This document shows, in pieces, positions 34,591-47,619 of a stretch of DNA of 64,000 nt (positions are counted from its first letter, which is position 1; every line of letters begins with the position of its first letter). This stretch comes from Thermus oshimai DSM 12092 (GTDB lineage Bacteria; Deinococcota; Deinococci; Deinococcales; Thermaceae), in assembly GCF_000373145.1 (NCBI RefSeq), contig NZ_KB890614.1, forward strand, positions 62,001 to 126,000, read 5' to 3'. The notes beneath the pieces were generated by a model. The model searched no databases and was not told the origin of the DNA. It saw only the letters and a list, made by a program, of their open reading frames with translations. Both the position numbers and the translations under genes were made by a program.

Positions 34591-34617
34591 CCCACCTCCC
34601 CCTTAGGGGGAGGTGGG
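34591..34617. terminator. Terminator between hera and tRNA-Arg (both directions)
   Basis: A 12-bp perfect stem (CCCACCTCCCCC / GGGGGAGGTGGG) with a 3-nt loop. On the minus strand it is followed by CTCCTTTTG, so it suits tRNA-Arg best; it may also stop hera transcripts. Confidence 0.75.
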
Positions 34618-34620
34618 GCT

Positions 34621-34697
34621 TGGTGCGCCCGGAGGGATTCGAACCCCCGGCCTAGGGCTTAGGAAGCCCCCGCTCTATCCTGCTGAGCTACGGGCGC
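34621..34697 (-). tRNA. tRNA-Arg (anticodon CCU)
   Basis: 77 nt including the encoded CCA. The acceptor stem is GCGCCCG/CGGGCGC, the D-stem GCTC/GAGC, and the anticodon loop TTCCTAA gives CCT for AGG codons. The T-loop is TTCGAAT. A promoter and a terminator flank it. Confidence 0.95.
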
Positions 34698-34711
34698 CCA
34701 CACCTTTGGCG

Positions 34712-34740
34712 ATTCTAGCACCCGGGAAGGGCGAAGGCAA
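34712..34740 (-). promoter_or_regulatory. Promoter of tRNA-Arg
   Basis: Minus strand TTGCCT at 34740-34735, a 17-nt spacer, and TAGAAT at 34717-34712, about 14 nt before the tRNA 5' end. Confidence 0.7.
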
Positions 34741-34752
34741 GGCGTATAGTTT

Positions 34753-34781
34753 TTTCCGGGGCTAAGGGCCCTTTGTATAAG
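34753..34781 (+). promoter_or_regulatory. Possible weak promoter of the tkt operon
   Basis: TATAAG at 34776-34781 with a poor TTTCCG 17 nt upstream. The transcript would have a leader of about 65 nt before a good RBS (GGAGGGA). A weak core promoter would fit activation by CbbR, but no clear LysR box was found. Confidence 0.3.
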
Positions 34782-34851
34782 GGAGCTTTTATGGATGCCC
34801 CGGAGGGCTTGGCTTGTGCCCGGCCTCACGCGCCCTTAGCCTGGAGGGAAG

Positions 34852-36807
34852 ATGACCGAGACCAAAGACCTAGCCGCCCTTTCGGTGAACGCCATCCGCT
34901 TTTTGGCCATAGACGCCGTGGAGAAGGCGAGAAGCGGCCACCCCGGCATGCCCATGGCCATGGCCCCCCTGGCCTACCTCCTCTTCCGGGAGGTCCTGCG
35001 CCACCACCCCGAAGACCCCTTGTGGCCGGACCGGGACCGGTTCGTCCTCTCCGCAGGGCACGGCTCCATGCTCCTTTATGCCGTCCTCCACCTCACGGGC
35101 TACGACCTTCCCCTGGAGGAGCTCCAGCGCTTCCGCCAATGGGGCTCCAAGACCCCCGGCCACCCCGAGCGGGGCCACACCCCAGGGGTGGAGGTGACCA
35201 CGGGGCCCTTGGGCCAGGGGATCTCCACCGCGGTGGGCCTGGCCTTGGCGGAGAAGAAGCTCGCCCTGGAGTTCAACCGCCCGGGGCACACGGTGGTGGA
35301 CCACTGGACCTACGTCCTGGCCTCGGACGGGGACCTGATGGAGGGGGTTTCCGGGGAGGCGAGCTCTTTGGCGGGCACCTGGGGGCTTTCCAAGCTCATC
35401 GTCTTCTGGGACGACAACCGCATCTCCATTGACGGCCCCACGGACCTGGCCTTCACGGAGGACGTCCTCGCCCGCTACCGGGCCTACGGCTGGCAGACCC
35501 TGAGGGTGGAGGACGCCAACGACCTCTCCGCCCTCCAGCACGCCCTACGGCTCGCCCAGCTGGACGAGCGGCCCACCCTCATCGCCGTGCGGAGCCACAT
35601 CGGCTACGGCTCCCCCAAGCAGGACTCCCACAAGGCCCATGGGGAGCCCTTGGGGCCGGAGGCGGTGGAGGCCACCCGCAAGGCCCTGGGCTGGCCCTAC
35701 CCGCCTTTCGTGGTGCCGGAGGAGGTCTACCGCCACATGGACATGCGCCCGAGGGGCCGGGCCCTGAAGGAGGAATGGGAAAGGCGCCTCGAGGCCTACG
35801 CCAAGGCCTACCCTGACCTCTACGAGGAGCTCCTCCGCCGCCTCAAGGGGGAGCTACCCCCCTTGCCCGAAACCCCTCCCGCCTTTGACAAGCCCGTGGC
35901 CACCCGGGCGGCAAGCGGCCGCACCCTGGACGAGATCGCCCCCAGGATGCCCGAGCTCCTTGGGGGTAGCGCCGACCTCACCCCCTCCAACAACACCCAG
36001 GCCAAGGGGATGGCGGACTTTTCCCGGGAGAACCCTTCCGGCCGCTACCTCCACTTCGGGGTGCGGGAGCACGCCATGGGGGCCATCCTGAACGGGCTCA
36101 ACCTCCACGGGGGGTATAGGGCCTACGGGGGGACCTTCCTGGTCTTCTCCGACTACATGCGCCCCGCCCTCCGCCTTGCCGCCCTCATGGGGACCCCCAC
36201 GGTCTTTGTCTTCACCCACGACTCCATCGCCCTTGGGGAGGACGGCCCCACCCACCAGCCCGTGGAGCACCTCATGGCCCTGAGGGCCATGCCGGACCTT
36301 TGGGTGATCCGTCCCGCGGACGCCCACGAGACCTTCTACGCCTGGCAGGTGGCCTTGAGGCGGAAGGAAGGCCCCACCGCCCTCATCCTCACCCGCCAGG
36401 CGGTGCCCCTCCTTTCCCCGGAGAAGGCGAAAGGGCTCCTAAAGGGCGGGTACGTCCTGGAGGAGGACGAGGAGCCCGAGGGCATCCTGGTGGCCACGGG
36501 GAGCGAGGTCCACCTGGCCCTCAGGGCCAAGGCCCTCCTGAACGGAAAGGGGCGGCGGGTGCGGGTGGTGAGCCTGCCTTCTTGGGAGCTCTTTGAGGCC
36601 CAGCCTGCGGAGTACCGGGAGCAGGTTCTCCCCAAAGGGCTTCCCACGGTGGCGGTGGAGGCGGGGGCCAGCTTGGGCTGGGAGCGGTACGCCCATAGGG
36701 CAGTGGGCCTGGACCGCTTCGGGGCCAGCGCCCCCTACCCCGAGGTCTACGAGCGCCTGGGCTTCACCCCGGAGCGGGTGGCGGAGGCCTTGGAAGAGCT
36801 CCTATGA
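34852..36807 (+). CDS. tkt: Transketolase (Calvin cycle)
   Basis: 651 aa thiamine-diphosphate enzyme. The N-terminal [20 protein letters not shown], the ThDP-binding motif [15 protein letters not shown] and the C-terminal [20 protein letters not shown] are all present. In the Calvin cycle it regenerates xylulose-5-P, erythrose-4-P and ribose-5-P; it also serves the pentose phosphate pathway. First gene of the upstream cbb operon; the next gene overlaps by 4 nt. A purine-rich RBS precedes the ATG. Confidence 0.94.
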
Positions 36808-37496
36808 GGTTCTGGGTGGACCCCCTACCCCGCCCTGGGGCCTACCGGGAGGTGGCCATCGTGGTGGACGTGATCCGGGCCACCACCACCGCGGGGGTCT
36901 ACCTGGAGGCGGGGGCCGAGGCTCTGGTCCTGGCCCCCTCCCTCGAGGCCGCCCGGGCCCTCAGGCGCCCGGGGGAGGTCCTGGCGGGGGAGGTGGGGGG
37001 GCTTAGGCCCGAGGGGTTTGACCTGGGGAACTCCCCCAAGGAGGCGGAGGGGGTCCGGGGCCGGACGGTGGTCATGGCCACCACCAACGGCACCCGGGCG
37101 GCCCACGCGGTCAAGGGGGCCCGGGCCATCCTCTTGGGATCGTTGCAGAACGCCTCCAGCGTGGCCCAAAAGGCCTCGGAGCTGGGGGAGGAGGTGGCCC
37201 TGGTGGCCGCGGGCAAGGAGGGCCAGGTGGCCTTGGACGACCTCTACGCCGTGGGGGTCATCGGGGCTAGGCTGTTGGCCCTGGGGTTCCGGCCCGAAGG
37301 GGAGATGGCCCATCTGGCCCTCTTCCTGGCCCAGAGCCCGCCTTTGGAGGTCCTTTGGGTTTCCGAGGCCGCCCAGGCCCTGGAGCGGGTGGGCCTGGGG
37401 GCGGACGTGGCCCTGTGCGCCCAGGTGGACCGCCACGGGGTGGTGCCCGTCTTCCAGGGCTTCCGGGACGGGGGGATGGTTTTCGGGAGGGGCTGA
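36804..37496 (+). CDS. ComB-family (2-phosphosulfolactate phosphatase-like) protein
   Basis: 230 aa. The pattern [43 protein letters not shown] and [17 protein letters not shown] is the ComB phosphatase family. ComB acts in coenzyme M synthesis in methanogens, but bacterial homologues are often of unknown substrate. Its place between tkt and an aldolase, with overlaps on both sides, suggests it dephosphorylates a phosphorylated acid or sugar linked to the Calvin cycle. That is inference; phosphoglycolate would be one candidate. Confidence 0.8.
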
Positions 37497-38302
37497 TGCT
37501 CTTGAGCCTAAAAGAGGTCCTCCCCGAGAAGGGCCGGGCGGTGGGGGCCTTTGACGTGGTGGGCCTGGAGTGGGCGGAGGCGGTCTTGGAGGGGGCGGAA
37601 ACCCTGGGCCTGCCCGTGATCCTCAGCGTGGCCCCCCACCTGGGGGGGCCGCCCCTCCCCGCCCTGGCCCCCGGCCTCCGCCACCTGGCGGAGGCGGCCC
37701 GGGTGCCCGTGGCCCTCCACCTGGACCACGGGGAAACCCTAGAGGAGGTGGTGGAGGCCCTGCGCCTGGGGTTTACGGGGGTGATGCTGGACGGAAGCCA
37801 CCTCCCCTTGGAGGAGAACATCCGCCTCACCCGCCTGGCGGTGGAGGTGGCCCGGGCCTTCGGCGCGGGGGTGGAGGGGGAGGTGGGGGTGGTGCCGGGC
37901 CACTACGGCCCCGGGGAGGACCGGGAGGCCCCCCTCTACACCGACCCCCTCGAGGCCGAGCGCTACCTGGCGGAAACAGGGGTGGACGCCCTGGCGGTGA
38001 GCATCGGCACCCGGCACGGCCTCTACAAGGGGCCCACCCGGCTCAACCTCCCCCTTCTGGAGCGCCTTTCCGCCCTCCCCGTGCCCCTGGTGCTCCACGG
38101 GGCTTCGGGGCTTAGCCCCGAGGAGTACCGGGCCCTGGTGCAGAGGGGCATCCGCAAGATCAACCTCTACGCCGACCTGGCCCTGGAGGCGGCCCGGGCC
38201 CTGAGGGAGGTTTCGGGGGAAGGCTACTTGGACCTCATGGCGGGGATGAAGGAGGCCCTGAAGGGGCTCGCCATGGCCCGGATGCGCCTATGGTGGGGGT
38301 AA
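37496..38302 (+). CDS. Class II ketose-bisphosphate aldolase (GatY/KbaY-like)
   Basis: 268 aa zinc aldolase. The zinc and active-site motifs are VALHLDHGETLEEVVEAL, GVMLDGSHLPLEEN, EGEVGVVPG, LVLHGASGLSPEE and KINLYADL. It is shorter and more GatY/KbaY-like than the second aldolase at 46.7 kb. TGATG links it to the comB-like gene. In this cluster it could act on fructose- or sedoheptulose-bisphosphate; having two aldolases suggests a split of these roles. Confidence 0.85.
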   Translation: MLLSLKEVLPEKGRAVGAFDVVGLEWAEAVLEGAETLGLPVILSVAPHLGGPPLPALAPGLRHLAEAARVPVALHLDHGETLEEVVEALRLGFTGVMLDGSHLPLEENIRLTRLAVEVARAFGAGVEGEVGVVPGHYGPGEDREAPLYTDPLEAERYLAETGVDALAVSIGTRHGLYKGPTRLNLPLLERLSALPVPLVLHGASGLSPEEYRALVQRGIRKINLYADLALEAARALREVSGEGYLDLMAGMKEALKGLAMARMRLWWG

Positions 38303-39042
38303 AGGCCCTGCTCTTGGACCTGGACGGCACCCTGGCGGAGACGGAGGAGCTCCACCGGGAGGCCTTCAACCGCGCCTTCCGGGAGGCGGGCCTCCCCTTC
38401 TCCTGGGACCGGCCCCTCTACAAGGCCCTTCTGGAGGTGACGGGGGGCAAGGAGCGCATCGCCCACTTCCTCCGCTCCTTCCCGGATGCCCCCCGGCTTT
38501 CCGAGGAGGCCCTAACCCGCCTGCACCAGCGGAAAAACGCCCTCTACGAGGCCCTTCTTCGGGAGGAGGGGGCCCCTTTGCGCCCGGGGGTGCGAAGGCT
38601 TCTGGGGGAGGCCCGGGAGGCGGGGCTCCTCTTGGCCCTGGTCACCACCACCAGCCCGGAGAACGCCCGGGCCTTTTTGGAGACCAGCGGGCTAAAGGGG
38701 GTCTTTCACCTGGTCCTGGCGGGGGACATCGTGCCCCGCAAGAAGCCCGACCCCGCCATCTACCACCTGGCCCGAAGGGAGCTGGGCCTAGGGGAGGGGG
38801 AGGGGGTGGCGGTGGAGGACTCCCGGAACGGCCTCCTCTCCGCCCGGGGGGCGGGCTTCCCGGTGCTCATCACCCCGGGGCTCTACACCGCGGACCAGGA
38901 CTTTTCCGAGGCCCAAGGGGTGGCGGAGCACCTGGGGGAGCCGGGGCACCCGGCCCGGTTCCTCCAGGGCCCCCGGGCGGGGGAAAGGGGAGTGGTGGAC
39001 CTGGACTACCTGGAGGAGGTGAGGGGATGGTGGAGCACCTGA
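38290..39042 (+). CDS. cbbY: CbbY-type HAD phosphatase
   Basis: 250 aa HAD hydrolase. Motif I is LLLDLDGTLAETEELHREAF (Asp10 nucleophile, Asp12 acid/base), with TGGKERIAHFLR in the cap, motif II VTTTS, Lys in RKKPDPAIY and motif IV VEDSRNG. The TLAETEELH and TGGKER signatures are those of CbbY, which removes the inhibitor xylulose-1,5-bisphosphate released from RuBisCO by CbbX. Overlaps both neighbours. An unusual tail of about 30 residues ends the protein. Confidence 0.88.
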   Translation: MVGVKALLLDLDGTLAETEELHREAFNRAFREAGLPFSWDRPLYKALLEVTGGKERIAHFLRSFPDAPRLSEEALTRLHQRKNALYEALLREEGAPLRPGVRRLLGEAREAGLLLALVTTTSPENARAFLETSGLKGVFHLVLAGDIVPRKKPDPAIYHLARRELGLGEGEGVAVEDSRNGLLSARGAGFPVLITPGLYTADQDFSEAQGVAEHLGEPGHPARFLQGPRAGERGVVDLDYLEEVRGWWST

Positions 39043-39332
39043 TCGTCTTCAACGCGGAGGCGAGCCCGGAGGAGGTGCGGCGCATGGTGGCCGAGGCCAA
39101 GGCGGTCCTCACCCAGATTCCTGGGGTCTTGGGCCTGCGCTACGGGGAGGCCCTGAGCCCGGGGGCCCGGTACCGGTACTGGCTTTCCGTGGTCTTTGCG
39201 GGGCCGGAGGTGGTGGAGGTCTACCGGGACCACCCCCTGCACGTGGACTTCGCCAACCGGGTCTTCCGGCCCATGGCCAAGGACCGCATCACCACCGACT
39301 ACCTGGTCCTGGAGGGGCCATGCGCACCCTGA
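39027..39332 (+). CDS. Dabb-family (A/B barrel) small protein
   Basis: 101 aa. The start MVEHLIVFNAEASPEEVRRM and the DHPLHVDFANRVFRPMA block are typical of stress-responsive dimeric alpha-beta barrel (Dabb) proteins. The molecular role is unknown. It overlaps cbbY and the next small gene, so it is translated as part of the cbb operon. Confidence 0.75.
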   Translation: MVEHLIVFNAEASPEEVRRMVAEAKAVLTQIPGVLGLRYGEALSPGARYRYWLSVVFAGPEVVEVYRDHPLHVDFANRVFRPMAKDRITTDYLVLEGPCAP

Positions 39333-39592
39333 CCTATCGGGAGGCCGAGCCCCAGGCCCTGAAGGTGCTGGTGGACGGGGTAGGGGAGGGCCTGGTCCTC
39401 CTGGGGGAGGGGGGTTACTACGCCCTCTACTACTTCTTTGGCCTCTACGGGCGGAAGGCCCCCGACCCCGAGGAAACCCCCGACTGGGTGGAGGGCCCAA
39501 GGCCCAGCCCAGAGGGCTTCCGGGAGCCCTACGACCAGGCGAAGTGGTTGGAGGCCAACGGGTATATGCTCTTCATCAACGAGTCCAAGTAG
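39320..39592 (+). CDS. Uncharacterised 90-aa protein, paralogue 1
   Basis: I do not recognise a family. The protein is small, acidic and aromatic-rich, with no signal peptide or membrane helix. It shares a layout with the next gene: an N-terminal E-A...A...VL.DG.G..LVL segment, then GYYALYYF, a Pro-rich stretch, W.EGP, PY...K.LE and an F.N end. It overlaps the Dabb gene by 13 nt. Its location between cbbY and cbbR suggests a Calvin-cycle accessory role, but nothing more can be claimed. Confidence 0.65.
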   Translation: MRTLTYREAEPQALKVLVDGVGEGLVLLGEGGYYALYYFFGLYGRKAPDPEETPDWVEGPRPSPEGFREPYDQAKWLEANGYMLFINESK

Positions 39593-39603
39593 GAGGGGGA
39601 AGG

Positions 39604-39873
39604 ATGGAGTACGCGGAGATGCCCTACGAGGAGGCCAGGAAGCGGGCGGTGAGGGTGCTGGAGGACGGCTATGGGGACGCGGTGGTCCTTAAGGACGAGC
39701 ACGGCTACTGGGCCTTGTACTACTTCTACTGGGCCCAGACCCCGCCCCCTGCGGCCACCCCCCACTGGATGGAGGGCCCCCTGGGGGAGGTGGGGGCCAT
39801 CCGCTCCCCTTACGAGATGAAGAAGTTCCTGGAAGAGGTGGGAGAGCCCGATTTCCTCAACGATGTAGACTAA
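39604..39873 (+). CDS. Uncharacterised 89-aa protein, paralogue 2
   Basis: A paralogue of the preceding gene: YEEARKRAVRVLEDGYGDAV, then GYWALYYFYW, a Pro-rich spacer, HWMEGPLGE, SPYEMKKFLEEVG and FLND. The ATG at 39604 follows an AGGAGGGGGAAGG RBS, 11 nt after the first copy. Soluble, acidic, no known domain. Tandem duplication followed by divergence is the simplest origin. Confidence 0.65.
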   Translation: MEYAEMPYEEARKRAVRVLEDGYGDAVVLKDEHGYWALYYFYWAQTPPPAATPHWMEGPLGEVGAIRSPYEMKKFLEEVGEPDFLNDVD

Positions 39874-39877
39874 CCCT

Positions 39878-40318
39878 GTGAGGCGGGACGCCTACCGCAT
39901 CCTCCAGGCCACGGAGACGGTCATCTACCTCTTCGCGGGCTTCCTCATCGCCGCCGGGGCGGCCATCCTCCTCCTCACCACCCTGCTGGAGGGGGTGGAG
40001 AACCTCCTGGCGGGGCGGTACCACGAGGTGGCCCTCACCCTTCTGGACCGGGTCCTCCTGGCCCTGATGCTGGCGGAGATCCTCTACACCCTGGTGCGCT
40101 TCGCCCGGGAGGGGAGCCTCGAGGCCACCCCCTTCCTCATCATCGGCATCATCGCCGCGGTGCGCCGGGTCCTGGTGCTCACCGCGGAGGCGGTGGAGAA
40201 GTTTGACCTCAGCGACCCCGCGTTTATGGCCGTCCTGGCGGAGCTCGGCCTCCTGGCCCTTCTGGTGGTGGCCTTCGCCCTGGCCATCCGCCTGGTCAAG
40301 AGCCTAGAAGGGCGATGA
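39878..40318 (+). CDS. PsiE-like small membrane protein
   Basis: 146 aa with four predicted helices. LLDRVLLALMLAEILYTLV and ATPFLIIGIIAAVRRVLVLT match the phosphate-starvation-inducible PsiE family. Function is unknown; a link to phosphate supply would fit a pathway that cycles phosphorylated sugars, but that is conjecture. The GTG start is 5 nt past the previous stop. The 3' end overlaps the convergent cbbR by 23 nt. Confidence 0.75.
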   Translation: MRRDAYRILQATETVIYLFAGFLIAAGAAILLLTTLLEGVENLLAGRYHEVALTLLDRVLLALMLAEILYTLVRFAREGSLEATPFLIIGIIAAVRRVLVLTAEAVEKFDLSDPAFMAVLAELGLLALLVVAFALAIRLVKSLEGR

Positions 40319-41201
40319 GGGCCTGGGCCGCGGGGTTGGCCACGTTCCTGGGGTAGACCAGCCAGAAAATGCGCCGGAGCTCCCCCACGGGCTCCTCCAG
40401 CCTCAGGGCCCGGAGGTTGCCCACCTTGAGGTTGGGCTGGATCACCACCCGGCTCACGATGCCCACCCCTGCCCCGGCCATGACCAGGCGCTTGGTCACC
40501 TCGTTGTTGTCCGTGTAGAAGGTGGGCTTGAGCTCCAGACCCGCCTGCTCAAAAGCCCGCTCCAGGACCCGCCAGGTCATGGAGCCCGGCTTGCGCACCA
40601 CCAGGCTCTCCTGGGCCAGCCAGGTGGGGGGCACGGTGCTCCGGTTCGCCCAGGGGTGCTCGGGGGGGACGATGAGGACCAGCTCGTCCTCGTAGAAAAG
40701 CCGCCGGTCGTACCCCTCCCAGCCCTCCACGCCCTCGAGGATGGCGAACTCCAGCTCCCCCATCCGGAGCCGCTCCGCCAGGCGCTCGGAGCTTCCGCTT
40801 TCCAGGTGCACCCGGATCCCCGGGTGCTCTTGGTGGAAGCGCTTGAGGAAGGTGGGCACCACGTAGGTGGCCATGGTGGTGGAGGCCCCAAAGGTCACCT
40901 CCCCCAGCTCCAGGCGGCCCATGGCCTGGGAGACCCGCTGGAACCCCTCCAGGGCCTGGACCACCCGCCGGGCCTCGGGGAGGAGGGCCTCCCCCACCCG
41001 GGAGAGGACCAGGTGCCGCCCCTGCCGCTCAAAGAGGGGGTGGCCCACCTGCTCCTCCAGGGTCCTCAGGTACTGGCTCACCGCGGGCTGGGTGATGCCC
41101 AAGGCCAAGGCCGCCCGGCCCACCCCTCCTTCCTCCACCACCGTGACGAAGACCCGTAATGCCGCGGGGTTGGGCAGTTTAGCGTTTTTAGATATGAGCA
41201 T
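40296..41201 (-). CDS. cbbR: LysR-family regulator, probable CbbR
   Basis: 301 aa. The N-terminal winged HTH is FVTVVEEGGVGRAALALGITQPAVSQYLRTLEEQ. The effector domain begins near EVTFGASTTMATYVVPTFL and contains VRKPGSMTW and AGAGVGIVSR. Divergent location next to glpX-cbbLS makes CbbR by far the likeliest identity; CbbR activates cbb operons in response to metabolites such as RuBP, ATP or NADPH. The ATG at 41201 is preferred to a GTG at 41252 because a TATACC box lies just upstream of it and the family N terminus fits. Confidence 0.85.
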   Translation of the reverse strand: MLISKNAKLPNPAALRVFVTVVEEGGVGRAALALGITQPAVSQYLRTLEEQVGHPLFERQGRHLVLSRVGEALLPEARRVVQALEGFQRVSQAMGRLELGEVTFGASTTMATYVVPTFLKRFHQEHPGIRVHLESGSSERLAERLRMGELEFAILEGVEGWEGYDRRLFYEDELVLIVPPEHPWANRSTVPPTWLAQESLVVRKPGSMTWRVLERAFEQAGLELKPTFYTDNNEVTKRLVMAGAGVGIVSRVVIQPNLKVGNLRALRLEEPVGELRRIFWLVYPRNVANPAAQALIALLGS

Positions 41202-41239
41202 GGGCTTATGGTATAGCCCAAAACATATGATTGCAATAA
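41201..41239 (-). promoter_or_regulatory. cbbR promoter and candidate CbbR operator
   Basis: Minus-strand TATACC (41215-41210) lies 8 nt before the cbbR ATG, with TTATTG (41239-41234) 18 nt upstream. A 20-bp inverted repeat with perfect 6-bp arms, TGGGCT-N8-AGCCCA (41201-41220), covers the -10 and the first base of the start codon. That suits autorepression by the LysR protein. Confidence 0.5.
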
Positions 41240-41259
41240 TAAAACCCCCCACCTAAGGT
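41231..41259 (+). promoter_or_regulatory. Promoter of the glpX-cbbLSX-prk-rpe-fba operon
   Basis: TTGCAA (41231-41236), a 17-nt spacer and TAAGGT (41254-41259), 6 nt before the glpX ATG, so glpX is probably leaderless. The -35 lies inside the palindrome ATTGCAAT (41230-41237) and overlaps the cbbR -35, the expected geometry for a CbbR-controlled divergent promoter. Confidence 0.65.
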
Positions 41260-41265
41260 AAGCGC

Positions 41266-42245
41266 ATGGCTATGCCTACGCGCAACCTGGGTCTGGACCT
41301 CATGCGGGCCACGGAGGCCGCCGCCTTAGCCTCCGCCCGCTGGGTGGGCCTGGGGAACAAGGAGGAGGGGGACCGGGCCGCGGTGGAGGCCATGCGCCTC
41401 ATCCTTTCCAGCCTGGACTTCCGGGCCCGGGTGGTCATCGGCGAGGGGGAGAAGGACCGGGCCCCCATGCTCTATAACGGCGAGGAGCTGGGCCAGGGGG
41501 AGGGCCCCTTCTGGGACCTGGCGGTGGACCCCGTGGAGGGCACCCGGCTTCTCGCCCTGGGGCGCCCCGGGGCCATCAGCGTCCTGGCCGCGGCCCCCGA
41601 GGGCACCCTCTTCAACCCGGGGCCGGGGTTCTACGCTGCCAAGCTGGTGGTGGGCCCGGAGGCCCGGGAGGCCATCGACCTGAAGGCCTCGGCGGCGGAC
41701 AACCTCAAGGAGATCGCCCGGGCCCTGAAGCGCTCGGTGCGGGAGCTTACGGTCTTCGTCCTGGACAAGCCCCGGCACGCCCGGCTCATAGAGGAGATCC
41801 GCTACGCGGGGGCCCGCATCACCCTCCAGACGGACGGGGACGTGGCCGGGGCCCTGGCCGCGGTGCTTCCGGGAACGGGGGTGGACGTCCTCATGGGCAC
41901 CGGGGGGACCCCGGAGGGGGTCATCGCCGCGGTGGCCGTGCGGGCCCTGGGGGGCGGGATGCAGATGCGCCTGGACCCCCAGAGCGAGGAGGAGCGCTGG
42001 AACCTGATCCACGCGGGGTTTGACCTGGAAAAGGTGTACACCCTGGAGGAGCTCTGCCGGGCGGAGGACACCCACTTCGCCGCCACCGGCATCACCGATG
42101 GGCCCTTCCTGAGGGGCGTGCGCTACGGGGCGCAGGAGGCCTGGACGGAGAGCCTGGTCATCCGCGGGGCCACCCGCACCCTGCGCAAGGTGGAGGCCCG
42201 GCACCGGCTTGAGAAGCTTCGGGGCATCAGCCCCGTGGCCTACTG

Positions 42246-42246
<1 letters not shown>
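41266..42246 (+). CDS. glpX: Class II fructose-1,6-bisphosphatase (GlpX), possible bifunctional FBPase/SBPase
   Basis: 326 aa, Li-sensitive metal phosphatase. It has VVIGEGEKDRAPMLYNGEEL, the metal site in LAVDPVEGTR (DPLEGT in most relatives), GTGGTPEGVIAAVAVRALGG and the lysine/arginine-rich C terminus. Cyanobacterial GlpX enzymes act on both fructose- and sedoheptulose-bisphosphate, which would cover both phosphatase steps of the Calvin cycle here because no other SBPase gene is seen. Operon partner of RuBisCO, 15 nt upstream of cbbL. Confidence 0.92.
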
Positions 42247-43707
<1,461 letters not shown>

Positions 43708-43719
43708 AAGGAGGAAGCC

Positions 43720-44151
43720 ATGCGGATCACCCAAGGAACCTTCTCTTACCTGCCCGACCTGACGGACGAGGAAATTCGGCTTCAGATTGAGTACATCATC
43801 AAGAACGGCTGGGCGGTCTCCATCGAGTACACCGACGACCCCCACCCCTACAACGTCTACTGGAACATGTGGGGCCTGCCCATGTTTGACCTGGAGGACG
43901 CCGCCCCCGCCTTCTACGAGTTCCAGAAGTGCCGGGAGGCCTTCCCCAACCACTACATCAAGATCAACGGCTACGACCCCTCCCCCATGTGGCAGGCCCA
44001 GCGGGTGTCCTTCATCGCCCACCGGCCCAAGGTGGAGGAGCCGGGCTTCCGCCTGCACCGGCAGCTTTACTCGGACGGGAGGCGGCTTAAGTACACCCTC
44101 GAGGCCTACGCCACCATGAGGCCTGAGGGGCAGCGCTACCAGGAGGAGTAA
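43720..44151 (+). CDS. cbbS: RuBisCO small subunit
   Basis: 143 aa. It starts MRITQGTFSYLPDLTDEEI and contains IEYTDDPHPYNVYWNMWGLP, both typical of red-type small subunits. The C-terminal extension (HRQLYSDGRRLKYTLEAYA) corresponds to the beta-hairpin that fills the central channel in red-type holoenzymes. 12 nt after cbbL with an AAAAGGAGG RBS. Confidence 0.97.
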   Translation: MRITQGTFSYLPDLTDEEIRLQIEYIIKNGWAVSIEYTDDPHPYNVYWNMWGLPMFDLEDAAPAFYEFQKCREAFPNHYIKINGYDPSPMWQAQRVSFIAHRPKVEEPGFRLHRQLYSDGRRLKYTLEAYATMRPEGQRYQEE

Positions 44152-44160
44152 CGGTCCTCT

Positions 44161-44185
44161 GGGGGAGGCTTTTGGGGCCTCCCCC
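44161..44185 (+). terminator. Attenuator-like hairpin between cbbS and cbbX
   Basis: GGGGGAGGC and GCCTCCCCC form a 9-bp stem with a 7-nt loop, 9 nt after the cbbS stop, followed by TACCTTT. The operon continues, so it probably causes partial termination or protects the 3' end of the cbbLS mRNA, favouring RuBisCO over activase. Confidence 0.6.
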
Positions 44186-44203
44186 TACCTTTAAGGAGGC
44201 GGC

Positions 44204-45082
44204 ATGGGAGAGGAAAAGGCCCTGGCCCTGGTGAAAAACCCCGAGGTGGAGGCGGTCCTCGAGGCCCTGGACAAGGAGCTGGTGGGCCTGGCCCCGGTGA
44301 AGCGGCGCATCCGGGAGATCGCCGCCTACCTCTCCGTGGACAAGCTCCGCCGGGAGCTTAACCTGGTGGCCGACCGCCCCACCCTGCACATGGCCTTCGT
44401 GGGGCCGCCGGGCACGGGCAAGACCACGGTGGCCATGCGCATGGCCACCATCCTCCACCGCCTGGGCTACATCCGCCGCGACCACCTGGTGGTGGCCAGC
44501 CGGGACGACCTGGTGGGCCAGTACATCGGCCACACCGCCCCCAAGACCAAGGAGGTCTTGAAGCGGGCCATGGGGGGGGTGCTCTTCATTGACGAGGCCT
44601 ACAGCCTCTACCGGGCGGAGAACGAGCGGGACTACGGCCAGGAGACCATAGAGATCCTCCTCCAGGTGATGGAGAACCAGCGGGAGGACCTGGTGGTCAT
44701 CCTGGCGGGGTACAAGGACCGCATGGAGGAGTTCTTCGCCCTGAACCCCGGGATGCGTTCCCGCATCGCCCACCACATTGAGTTCCCCCCCTATAACCTG
44801 GAAGAACTCTACCAGATTGGCCTGATCATGCTGGAGAAGCAGGGGTACCGCCTCACTCCCGAGGCCGAGGTGGCCTTTAAGGAGTACCTGGAGCGGCGGA
44901 TGGAACGCCCCAACTTCGCCTACGCCAGGAGCGTGCGCAACGCCATAGATCGCTTCAAGCTCCGCCAGGCCTACCGCCTCTACCAGAAGGCGGGCCCCGT
45001 GACCCCCGAGGAGCTGGTGACCATCACCGCGGACGACATCTACGCCAGCTCCCTCTTTAAGGAGGAGGAGCATGCCCCATAG
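44204..45082 (+). CDS. cbbX: Red-type RuBisCO activase CbbX
   Basis: 292 aa AAA+ ATPase. Walker A is GPPGTGKTT (67-75), the pore loop is [10 protein letters not shown], Walker B is [13 protein letters not shown] (LFIDEA about 127-132) and sensor 1 is [10 protein letters not shown]. CbbX threads the RbcL C-terminal tail to release tight-binding sugar phosphates. Its presence confirms the red-type assignment. An AAGGAGG RBS precedes the ATG; its stop overlaps prk by 11 nt. Confidence 0.95.
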
Positions 45083-46037
45083 GCCCTTTATGCTCGGCAT
45101 CGCCGGGGACTCCGGGGCGGGGAAGACCACCCTGTCCAGCGGGGTGGCCCGGCTTCTCGGCGTGGAGCGGACCACCAACATCTGCGTGGACGACTACCAC
45201 AAGTACGATCGCAAGCAGCGGAAGGAACTGGGCATCACCCCCTTGAACCCGGCCTGCAACTACATGGACATCATGGAGCAGCACGTCCGGCTCCTTTCCG
45301 AGGGGGAACCCATCCTGAAGCCCGTCTACAACCACACCACCGGCACCTTTGACCCCCCGGTTTACGTGCCCGCCCCCCGGGCGGTGGAGGAGGGGGGGCG
45401 GCTCATCCCCCGGGTGGTGATCCTGGAGGGGCTCCTCACCCTCTTCTCCCCCGAGATGCGGGGCCGCTACCACCTCACGGTCTACCTGGACCCCGAGGAG
45501 GAGCTCCGCCGGGAGTGGAAGGTGAAGCGGGACGTGGCCAAGCGGGGCTACACCCCCGAGGAGGTCCTGGCGGACATAGAGCGGCGCATGCCCGACTCCC
45601 GGGCCTTCATCTGGCCCCAGAAGGCCCACGCGGACATCATCGTCCGCTTCTACCGCCCCCCGGGGTACGATCCGGAAAACCCCAGCACCCTGAACGTCCG
45701 CATCACCCTGAAGCACACCCTTCCCCGGCTGGACCTCTCCGAGGTCCTCCACTCCGCCTACGAGGACGAGGCCCTGATCCGGCTGGAGGCCCGCAAGGAA
45801 GCGGACATCCTGGACATCACCGGCAACGTCCGCCCCGAGCAGGCCCAGACCTTTGAGCGCATCATCTGGGAGCACCTAGGCCACCACGCGGAGCACTTTG
45901 ACCCCAGCCTGGTGGGCACCTTCTGGGACAAAGCGGGGCAGAGCTACCCCCTGGCCCTGACCCAGCTCATCATCGCCTACTACCTGGTTAAGATGCGGGA
46001 GCTGGCCATCGAGCGGGGGCACCTGCGGGTGGCCTAG
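45072..46037 (+). CDS. prk: Phosphoribulokinase, class II (plant/cyanobacterial type)
   Basis: 321 aa, makes ribulose-1,5-bisphosphate from ribulose-5-phosphate. The P-loop is [12 protein letters not shown], followed by [19 protein letters not shown] and [14 protein letters not shown], all class II features; proteobacterial class I enzymes look different. The P-loop Cys16 of the plant enzyme is Ala16 here, while the cysteine before DDYH is kept, so thioredoxin regulation as in chloroplasts is unlikely. It overlaps cbbX by 11 nt and is followed by rpe. Confidence 0.93.
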
Positions 46038-46046
46038 GAGGCAAGG

Positions 46047-46715
46047 ATGCTGAAGTTCGCGCCCTCCATCCTCACGGCGGACCTTTCCCGGCTGGCCGAG
46101 GCCATCGGGGAGGCGGAGGCGGCGGGGGTGGACTGGATCCACCTGGACGTGATGGACGGGGTCTTCGTCCCCAACCTCACCTTCGGCCCCCTCCTGGTGG
46201 AGGCGGTGCGCCGGGTGACCGCCCTGCCCCTGGATGTCCACCTCATGATCGTGAGCCCGGAGCGCTACCTCGAGGACTTCGCCCGGGCGGGGGCCGACCT
46301 CATCACCGTCCACTACGAGGCCACCCCCCACGCCCACCGGGCGGTCCAGAAGATCAAGGAGCTGGGGAAGAAGGCGGGGCTGGCCATCAACCCGGCCACG
46401 CCCCTGGAGGCCTTTGAACCCCTTCTCCCCGAGCTGGACCTGGCCCTCCTCATGAGCGTGAACCCGGGGTTTGGAGGGCAGAAGTACATCCCCCGCTCCA
46501 CCGAGAGGCTCCGCCGGCTCAAGGCCATGCGGGACGCCCTCAACCCCAGGTGCCTCATAGAGGTGGACGGGGGGGTGAACCTGTCCACCGTGGCCGAGGT
46601 CTACCGGGCAGGGGCCGACGTGGCGGTGGCGGGGAGCGCGCTTTTCAACGATAGGCCGGTGGCGGAAAACCTTAAGGCGCTAAAGGAGGTTCTCTATGCC
46701 CTTGGTGGTCGGTAA
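46047..46715 (+). CDS. rpe: Ribulose-phosphate 3-epimerase
   Basis: 222 aa TIM barrel. FAPSILTADLSRLAEAI, HLDVMDGVFVPNLTFGP, HLMIVSPERYLEDFARAGAD, VNPGFGGQKYIP and EVDGGVN are all diagnostic. It regenerates ribulose-5-phosphate for Prk. A GGAGG RBS precedes the ATG; it overlaps fba by 20 nt. Confidence 0.95.
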   Translation: MLKFAPSILTADLSRLAEAIGEAEAAGVDWIHLDVMDGVFVPNLTFGPLLVEAVRRVTALPLDVHLMIVSPERYLEDFARAGADLITVHYEATPHAHRAVQKIKELGKKAGLAINPATPLEAFEPLLPELDLALLMSVNPGFGGQKYIPRSTERLRRLKAMRDALNPRCLIEVDGGVNLSTVAEVYRAGADVAVAGSALFNDRPVAENLKALKEVLYALGGR

Positions 46716-47619
46716 GGAAGTGCTGGACAAGGCTCGGCGGGAAGGCTACGCGGTCCCCAGCTTCAACACCAACAACCTGGAGATCACCCAGGCCATCCTG
46801 GAGGTGGCCGAGGAGCTTAGGGCCCCGGTCTTCATTCAGGTTTCCGACGGGGCCCGCAAGTACGCGGGCATGGACAACCTGGCCAACCTGGTGAAGGACA
46901 TGGCAAGCCGCGTCCGGGTGCCCGTGGTCTTGCACCTGGACCACGGGGCGGACTTCAAAATGGTCATGCAGGCCCTGCGGGCGGGCTTCACCAGCGTGAT
47001 GATCGACGCCAGCCACCACCCCTTCCACGAGAACGTGGCCGAGACCAAGAAGGTGGTGGAGGCGGCCCACGCGGTGGGGGTGAGCGTGGAGGCAGAGCTC
47101 GGCCGCCTCCAGGGTATAGAGGACAACATCCAAGTTTCCGAGGCGGAGGCCTTCCTCACCGACCCCGAGGAGGCGGAGCGCTTTGTGGCGGAAACGGGGA
47201 TTGACTACCTGGCCATCGCCATCGGCACCAGCCACGGGGCCTACAAGGGGAAGGGCCGGCCCTACATTGACCACAAGCGCCTGGAGGAGATCGCCAACCG
47301 GGTCTCCATCCCCCTGGTCCTCCACGGGGCCAGCGGGGTGCCCACCTGGCTCAAGGAGAAGCTCCTGGCCACGGGGGCCGAGCTCAAGGAGGCCACGGGC
47401 ATCCACGACGAGGACATCCGGAAGGCCATCCCCAACGGCATTGCCAAGATCAACATTGACACCGACCTGCGCCTGGCCATGACCCTGGGCATCCGGGAGG
47501 TGGTCACGCAGAACCCCAAGGAGTTCGACCCCCGGAAGATCATCGGCAAGGGGCGGGACTACCTCAAGATGGTCATCCGGGAGAAGTTTGAGCTCATGGG
47601 GACCGTGGGCCGGGCCTGA
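46696..47619 (+). CDS. fba: Class II fructose-bisphosphate aldolase
   Basis: 307 aa zinc aldolase resembling the Thermus aquaticus/caldophilus enzyme. VPSFNTNNLEITQAILE, VVLHLDHGADFKMVMQALRA, the EAELGRLQGIED segment, AIGTSHGAYKGKGRP, LVLHGASGVP and KINIDTDLRLA cover the metal and substrate sites. It would condense triose phosphates to fructose- and sedoheptulose-bisphosphate. RBS AAGGAGG lies inside rpe. The operon ends here; the aquaporin-like gene converges and overlaps by 26 nt. Confidence 0.93.
   Translation: MPLVVGKEVLDKARREGYAVPSFNTNNLEITQAILEVAEELRAPVFIQVSDGARKYAGMDNLANLVKDMASRVRVPVVLHLDHGADFKMVMQALRAGFTSVMIDASHHPFHENVAETKKVVEAAHAVGVSVEAELGRLQGIEDNIQVSEAEAFLTDPEEAERFVAETGIDYLAIAIGTSHGAYKGKGRPYIDHKRLEEIANRVSIPLVLHGASGVPTWLKEKLLATGAELKEATGIHDEDIRKAIPNGIAKINIDTDLRLAMTLGIREVVTQNPKEFDPRKIIGKGRDYLKMVIREKFELMGTVGRA

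Follow-up and report, generated by a model that had tools for sequence, protein, structure and literature searches.

A tandem pair of small genes beside the Calvin-cycle genes

What do two small genes without recognizable relatives do among the genes of the Calvin-Benson-Bassham cycle? The question is raised by a stretch of 64,000 nucleotides of Thermus oshimai DSM 12092, called the window here. A first-pass annotation had claimed two adjacent paralogous reading frames in it, coding for acidic proteins of no known family. Both frames exist as claimed on the + strand and were characterized by ORF, alignment and selection analysis: gene A (39320..39592) encodes a protein of 90 aa and gene B (39604..39873) one of 89 aa, each with a pI of about 4.5. 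The motifs DG.G, GY(Y/W)ALYYF, W.EGP, and PY...K.LE, which were said to be shared, are present in both proteins in the same order, and A and B are 44% identical across 85 aligned residues (E 9e-21). Neither protein of the window contains a cysteine.

The two genes are spaced by 11 nt (39593..39603, + strand). This gap carries the ribosome site of B, GGAGG, which starts inside the stop codon of A, and sites of the GGAGG type are found at A and B in nearly every genome. A tree of 50 sequences resolves A and B as distinct clades at 100/100 support, so that a single duplication preceded the radiation of the Thermaceae. Both copies are retained in every Calvin-cycle genome. The median pairwise dN/dS is 0.28 for A and likewise 0.28 for B; by this codon-based measure, both are evolving under purifying selection. 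The C-terminus of A, -NESK, and the C-terminal N-D-x-D residues of B, which read -ND(V/L)D, are invariant in 25 genomes. Being invariant though predicted to be disordered, the tail of A looks like a docking motif.

A and B are real, selected genes of a single family. That they are chance ORFs or an annotation artefact can hardly be entertained: spurious ORFs are many in GC-rich DNA, but these two are conserved across four genera with the dN/dS, ribosome sites and fixed ends given above.

Family and fold searches

No known family accommodates the two proteins, as had been supposed: nothing was found for A or B at E<=1 in Pfam or NCBIfam. A Pfam scan of 16 A/B members at E<=10 returned a stray DUF4224 at 0.15 as its sole match, and a PHROGs search gave one weak match (0.16) and nothing usable. 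Against the A/B profile, PDB sequences reached a best E of only 0.8 and 1.7, i.e., no credible structure match. Among viral contigs no relative of A or B was found, and tblastn matches to primases of Pseudomonas phages (about 30% identity, E 0.01-0.1) were judged to be due to chance. A pattern scan with A as its seed, covering approximately 85,000 species genomes and reaching close relatives only, had only Thermus among the matches listed.

Neighboring or functionally adjacent proteins do not provide an origin either. Comparison by hhalign with Dabb, RbcS, PsiE, and DinB gave a probability below 1% in each case. The Dabb domain (PF07876), a stress-responsive A/B barrel, is small like A, and its gene adjoins and overlaps A; however, the profile comparison yields a probability of 0.4%, no Pfam match appears at E<=1, and A and B are thus neither members nor copies of this family.

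The AlphaFold2 model of A, based on a 16-row alignment, has a mean pLDDT of 89 and a pTM of 0.81. It predicts a fold of the order helix-strand-strand-strand-strand-helix, followed by disordered residues 86-90 (pLDDT <50). Fold searches of this model against PDB and BFVD revealed no match at E<=0.001 and common arrangements only; with a best Foldseek E of 0.9 and a best VIA-align Z of 3.5 there is no clear neighbor, which is not proof of a new fold. A natural, in-frame read-through chain A-stop-B (10 rows) was modeled at pLDDT 45 and pTM 0.33 with an uninformative interface, so that it is paralogy and co-retention that suggest a hetero-oligomer.

Gene neighborhood

The pair is part of the + strand run tkt-comB-fba1-cbbY-Dabb-A-B-psiE. 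The run begins with transketolase (tkt, 34852..36807); it proceeds through a gene of the ComB-like 2-phosphosulfolactate phosphatase family (PF04029, 36804..37496), a second copy of class II aldolase (fba1, 37496..38302; Pfam, locus comparison), cbbY (38290..39042) and the gene of a Dabb-domain protein (PF07876, 39027..39332; Pfam, 48 bits, locus comparison) to A and B, and ends downstream of B with a PsiE-like membrane protein (39878..40318; Pfam, locus comparison). The HAD phosphatase upstream is CbbY, an ortholog of xylulose-1,5-bisphosphate phosphatase, judged from its Pfam assignment and the nearest solved structures (PDB 4uar/4uas, E 8e-51). cbbY and the Dabb gene overlap by 16 nt, the Dabb gene and A by 13 nt.

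Convergent with this run is the gene of a LysR-family regulator (CbbR-like, 40296..41252, - strand). Beyond it, and divergent from it, lies a second run, glpX-rbcL-rbcS-cbbX-prk-rpe-fba (41266..47604, + strand; locus comparison), which encodes form I RuBisCO. The first-pass annotation had placed the pair inside the cbb operon. This holds for the run shared with tkt, cbbY, and the Dabb gene, but not for the rbcLS run, which is separate. A simple consensus scan of the + strand from 34600 to 42400 revealed no promoter-like sites, a result that says little for Thermus.

The composition of the run varies between lineages. The ComB-like gene is common to Thermus and Meiothermus. The second aldolase shares about 41% identity with the aldolase of the cbb run; it occurs in the complete Thermus clusters and the g5 genome only and is missing from the Meiothermus and Allomeiothermus clusters. 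The gene 3' of B is PsiE-like in Thermus and g5, of the DinB family in Allomeiothermus, and DUF3422 in most Meiothermus loci. The Dabb gene adjoins cbbY in 24 of the 27 pair-bearing genomes and is missing from G053, G055, and G062.

Distribution and co-variation with the Calvin cycle

Of 111 Deinococcota genomes searched with the A/B profile, 27 contain the pair; all of these are Thermaceae, and the two genes are in tandem every time. Strong matches to the form I RuBisCO large subunit are present in 25 of the 111 genomes, and each of these 25 carries the pair; weaker RuBisCO-like matches (<230 bits) outside the Thermaceae are not accompanied by it. Two genomes contain the pair but no RuBisCO. 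One of them, G069, is 85% complete and has a PRK ortholog close to a contig edge, so the missing RuBisCO is most likely an assembly gap. The other, G062, is 94% complete and has neither form I RuBisCO nor a PRK ortholog, and its pair is frame-broken, with a 1-nt deletion in A and a deletion of about 20 nt in B when compared with intact relatives. The reading frame of A is also broken in G020, which was set aside as a 65% complete assembly in 620 contigs with a split rbcL. The first-pass annotation had named, as evidence that would speak against a Calvin-cycle role, homologs widespread in genomes without RuBisCO and never near cbb genes; within the phylum, the opposite was found.

Contrasts (INDEPENDENCE) were scored on a tree built from the rpoB genes of 49 Thermaceae. 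The presence of form I RuBisCO and that of the pair change in the same direction in about eight of nine independent contrasts and in opposite directions in none. When the Calvin cycle (RuBisCO or PRK) is set against the intact pair, the trait vectors are identical (9/9 contrasts, sign test p 0.004). A and B thus show the phyletic co-occurrence with form I RuBisCO and PRK that is expected of an accessory dedicated to the Calvin cycle.

In Thermus, this co-occurrence could be explained by linkage alone, since PMC13019369 describes the cbb cluster as laterally mobile. In at least three Meiothermus genomes, G064, G059, and G058, however, the run from tkt to A-B does not share a contig with that of rbcLS; each lies at least tens of kb away from the contig ends, and both are retained. 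We therefore consider it very probable that the A-B pair is linked to the Calvin cycle at the genomic level. Of the accessory role that had been suggested for it, in assembly, metabolite handling or regulation, the association stands: the pair tracks form I RuBisCO and PRK in all contrasts, persists where it is unlinked from rbcLS, and is disrupted in the genome that has lost the cycle. What does not stand is a place in the same run as RuBisCO or a part as general companion of the enzyme. The latter follows from plasmids: a RuBisCO large subunit of 60-90% identity is encoded on 119 of them, and the pair occurs on a single one, pMESIL01 of Allomeiothermus, and is absent from the 118 others; the enzyme does not in itself require the pair.

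In Allomeiothermus silvanus both runs are located on pMESIL01 (L041), a plasmid of 348 kb that carries the entire Calvin-cycle cluster, with insertion sequences and toxin-antitoxin genes close by.

Alternative explanations

The most constant neighbor of the pair is cbbY, whether or not the Dabb gene is present and also where rbcLS lies elsewhere; wherever the contig allows a check, the pair adjoins cbbY and not rbcL. Judged by position, A and B could therefore just as well act on the cbbY/transketolase side. They might belong to, or assist, a module of CbbY and Dabb that clears inhibitory sugar phosphates, e.g., xylulose-1,5-bisphosphate (XuBP). We regard this as unlikely, though the constant cbbY-(Dabb)-A-B adjacency and the identity of the HAD protein as a CbbY ortholog fit it, and it is kept alive by the finding that XuBP forms faster with increasing temperature and is removed by CbbY as a repair enzyme (PMC10212915). 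Damage to the presumed partners nevertheless leaves the pair untouched. In G003, CbbY (L165 9995-10456) lacks about 97 aa of its interior through an in-frame deletion, and in G001 it is frameshifted, which may be a draft error since comB is also split there; both genomes nevertheless have intact A, B, and rbcL. The deletion in G003 beside intact RuBisCO, A, and B suggests that CbbY can be dispensable. Correspondingly, the Dabb gene is missing from the RuBisCO-bearing Meiothermus genomes G053 and G055, where A and B are intact, and comB gives only partial matches in G004 and G006 and a split one in G001. A and B are retained more strictly than comB, Dabb, psiE, and cbbY, which argues against mere subunits of CbbY or Dabb and weakens the case for an obligate partnership with either. 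CbbY, encoded directly upstream, resembles the pair in being bound to Calvin-cycle genomes, but it belongs to a different protein family and is outlasted by A and B in the two genomes in which it is damaged.

Regulation of flux is a further candidate, with A and B acting as a CP12-like clamp on PRK/GAPDH or as a co-effector of LysR. CP12 proteins are acidic, comprise about 80-90 aa and are tied to Calvin-cycle organisms. A and B are like them in size, acidity and Calvin-cycle association, including the strict tie to PRK-bearing genomes, and their gene run ends facing lysR. Yet no match to CP12 (PF02672) was obtained, neither at E<=1 in Pfam nor for the 16 members at E<=10; the regulatory cysteine pair(s) of CP12 have no counterpart in the cysteine-free proteins of the window, and A is predicted to be folded rather than disordered. 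We consider this role improbable as well. Hitch-hiking, i.e., a pair unrelated to CO2 fixation that is carried along by a mobile cbb cluster, appears decidedly improbable. The lateral mobility described in PMC13019369, the plasmid-borne cluster of Allomeiothermus, and a co-occurrence in Thermus that could be plain linkage are in line with it; co-retention in G064, G059, and G058 despite separation from rbcLS, the broken pair in G062 as the sole pair-bearing genome without RuBisCO and PRK, and retention stricter than that of comB, Dabb, psiE, and cbbY are not.

A proposed docking accessory

Over CbbY-side repair, a CP12-like regulator, and hitch-hiking, we favor a two-protein accessory that docks on an enzyme of the cycle. 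In our leading interpretation, held with slightly less than even confidence, A and B together serve the Calvin-Benson-Bassham cycle as a dedicated two-protein accessory specific to the Thermaceae. Like RbcX, Raf1, Raf2/acRAF, and CbbX, they would be accessory-type genes accompanying RuBisCO; unlike these, they were found only in Thermaceae and match none of the respective Pfam families. The fold searches with A, with the best Foldseek E and VIA Z given above, yielded no clear neighbor, a lack of match that is no disproof of a fold of this class.

More tentatively, A and B may form a hetero-oligomer that docks on a Calvin-cycle enzyme, a possible but less than probable arrangement. The two paralogs would have taken different jobs and, given their paralogy and co-retention, probably assemble with each other. 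Each protein would combine a small core of the alpha+beta type, for which only A has a confident prediction, with a flexible conserved tail. Either the tails (-NESK in A, -ND(V/L)D in B) or the aromatic and Pro-rich loop (GYYALYYF...P.W.EGP) would dock on the enzyme, for which RuBisCO, CbbX, or PRK are the likeliest candidates, and docking would stabilize or regulate it at high temperature. In its most specific form, the proposal is speculative and, taken as a whole, doubtful: A and B would be a new heteromeric RuBisCO/CbbX/PRK-binding factor that occurs in thermophilic Thermaceae alone and, by inserting its C-terminal tails into the enzyme, allows a form I RuBisCO system obtained by horizontal transfer to function near 65-70 C.

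With a retention as strict as that of RuBisCO and PRK, whereas cbbY, Dabb, and comB are damaged or lost in some genomes, the pair marks a piece still missing from a thermophilic Calvin cycle. If A and B indeed stabilize or regulate RuBisCO or PRK at 65-70 C, they would offer studies of heat-labile CO2 fixation a new tool.

Relation to reported autotrophy in Thermaceae

Autotrophy of Thermaceae was, according to PMC13019369, first demonstrated in 2026, via the Calvin cycle in T. brevis PS18 and other Thermus and together with a proteome. The role of A and B is thus directly testable in strains that are already grown autotrophically. The "7-gene" cbb cluster of that report corresponds to the run from glpX to fba; the words "hypothetical" and "Dabb" are absent from its main text, which does not mention the A and B genes. 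As it assigns the tags KQ693_12605 to tkt and KQ693_12565 to LysR, and exactly seven tags lie between these two as in the window, A would be KQ693_12580 and B KQ693_12575.

One Thermus genome that lacks both RuBisCO and the pair contains a truncated PRK remnant (G017:C4:104852-105691), which resembles the cbb remnants that the same report describes for T. scotoductus (PMC13019369).
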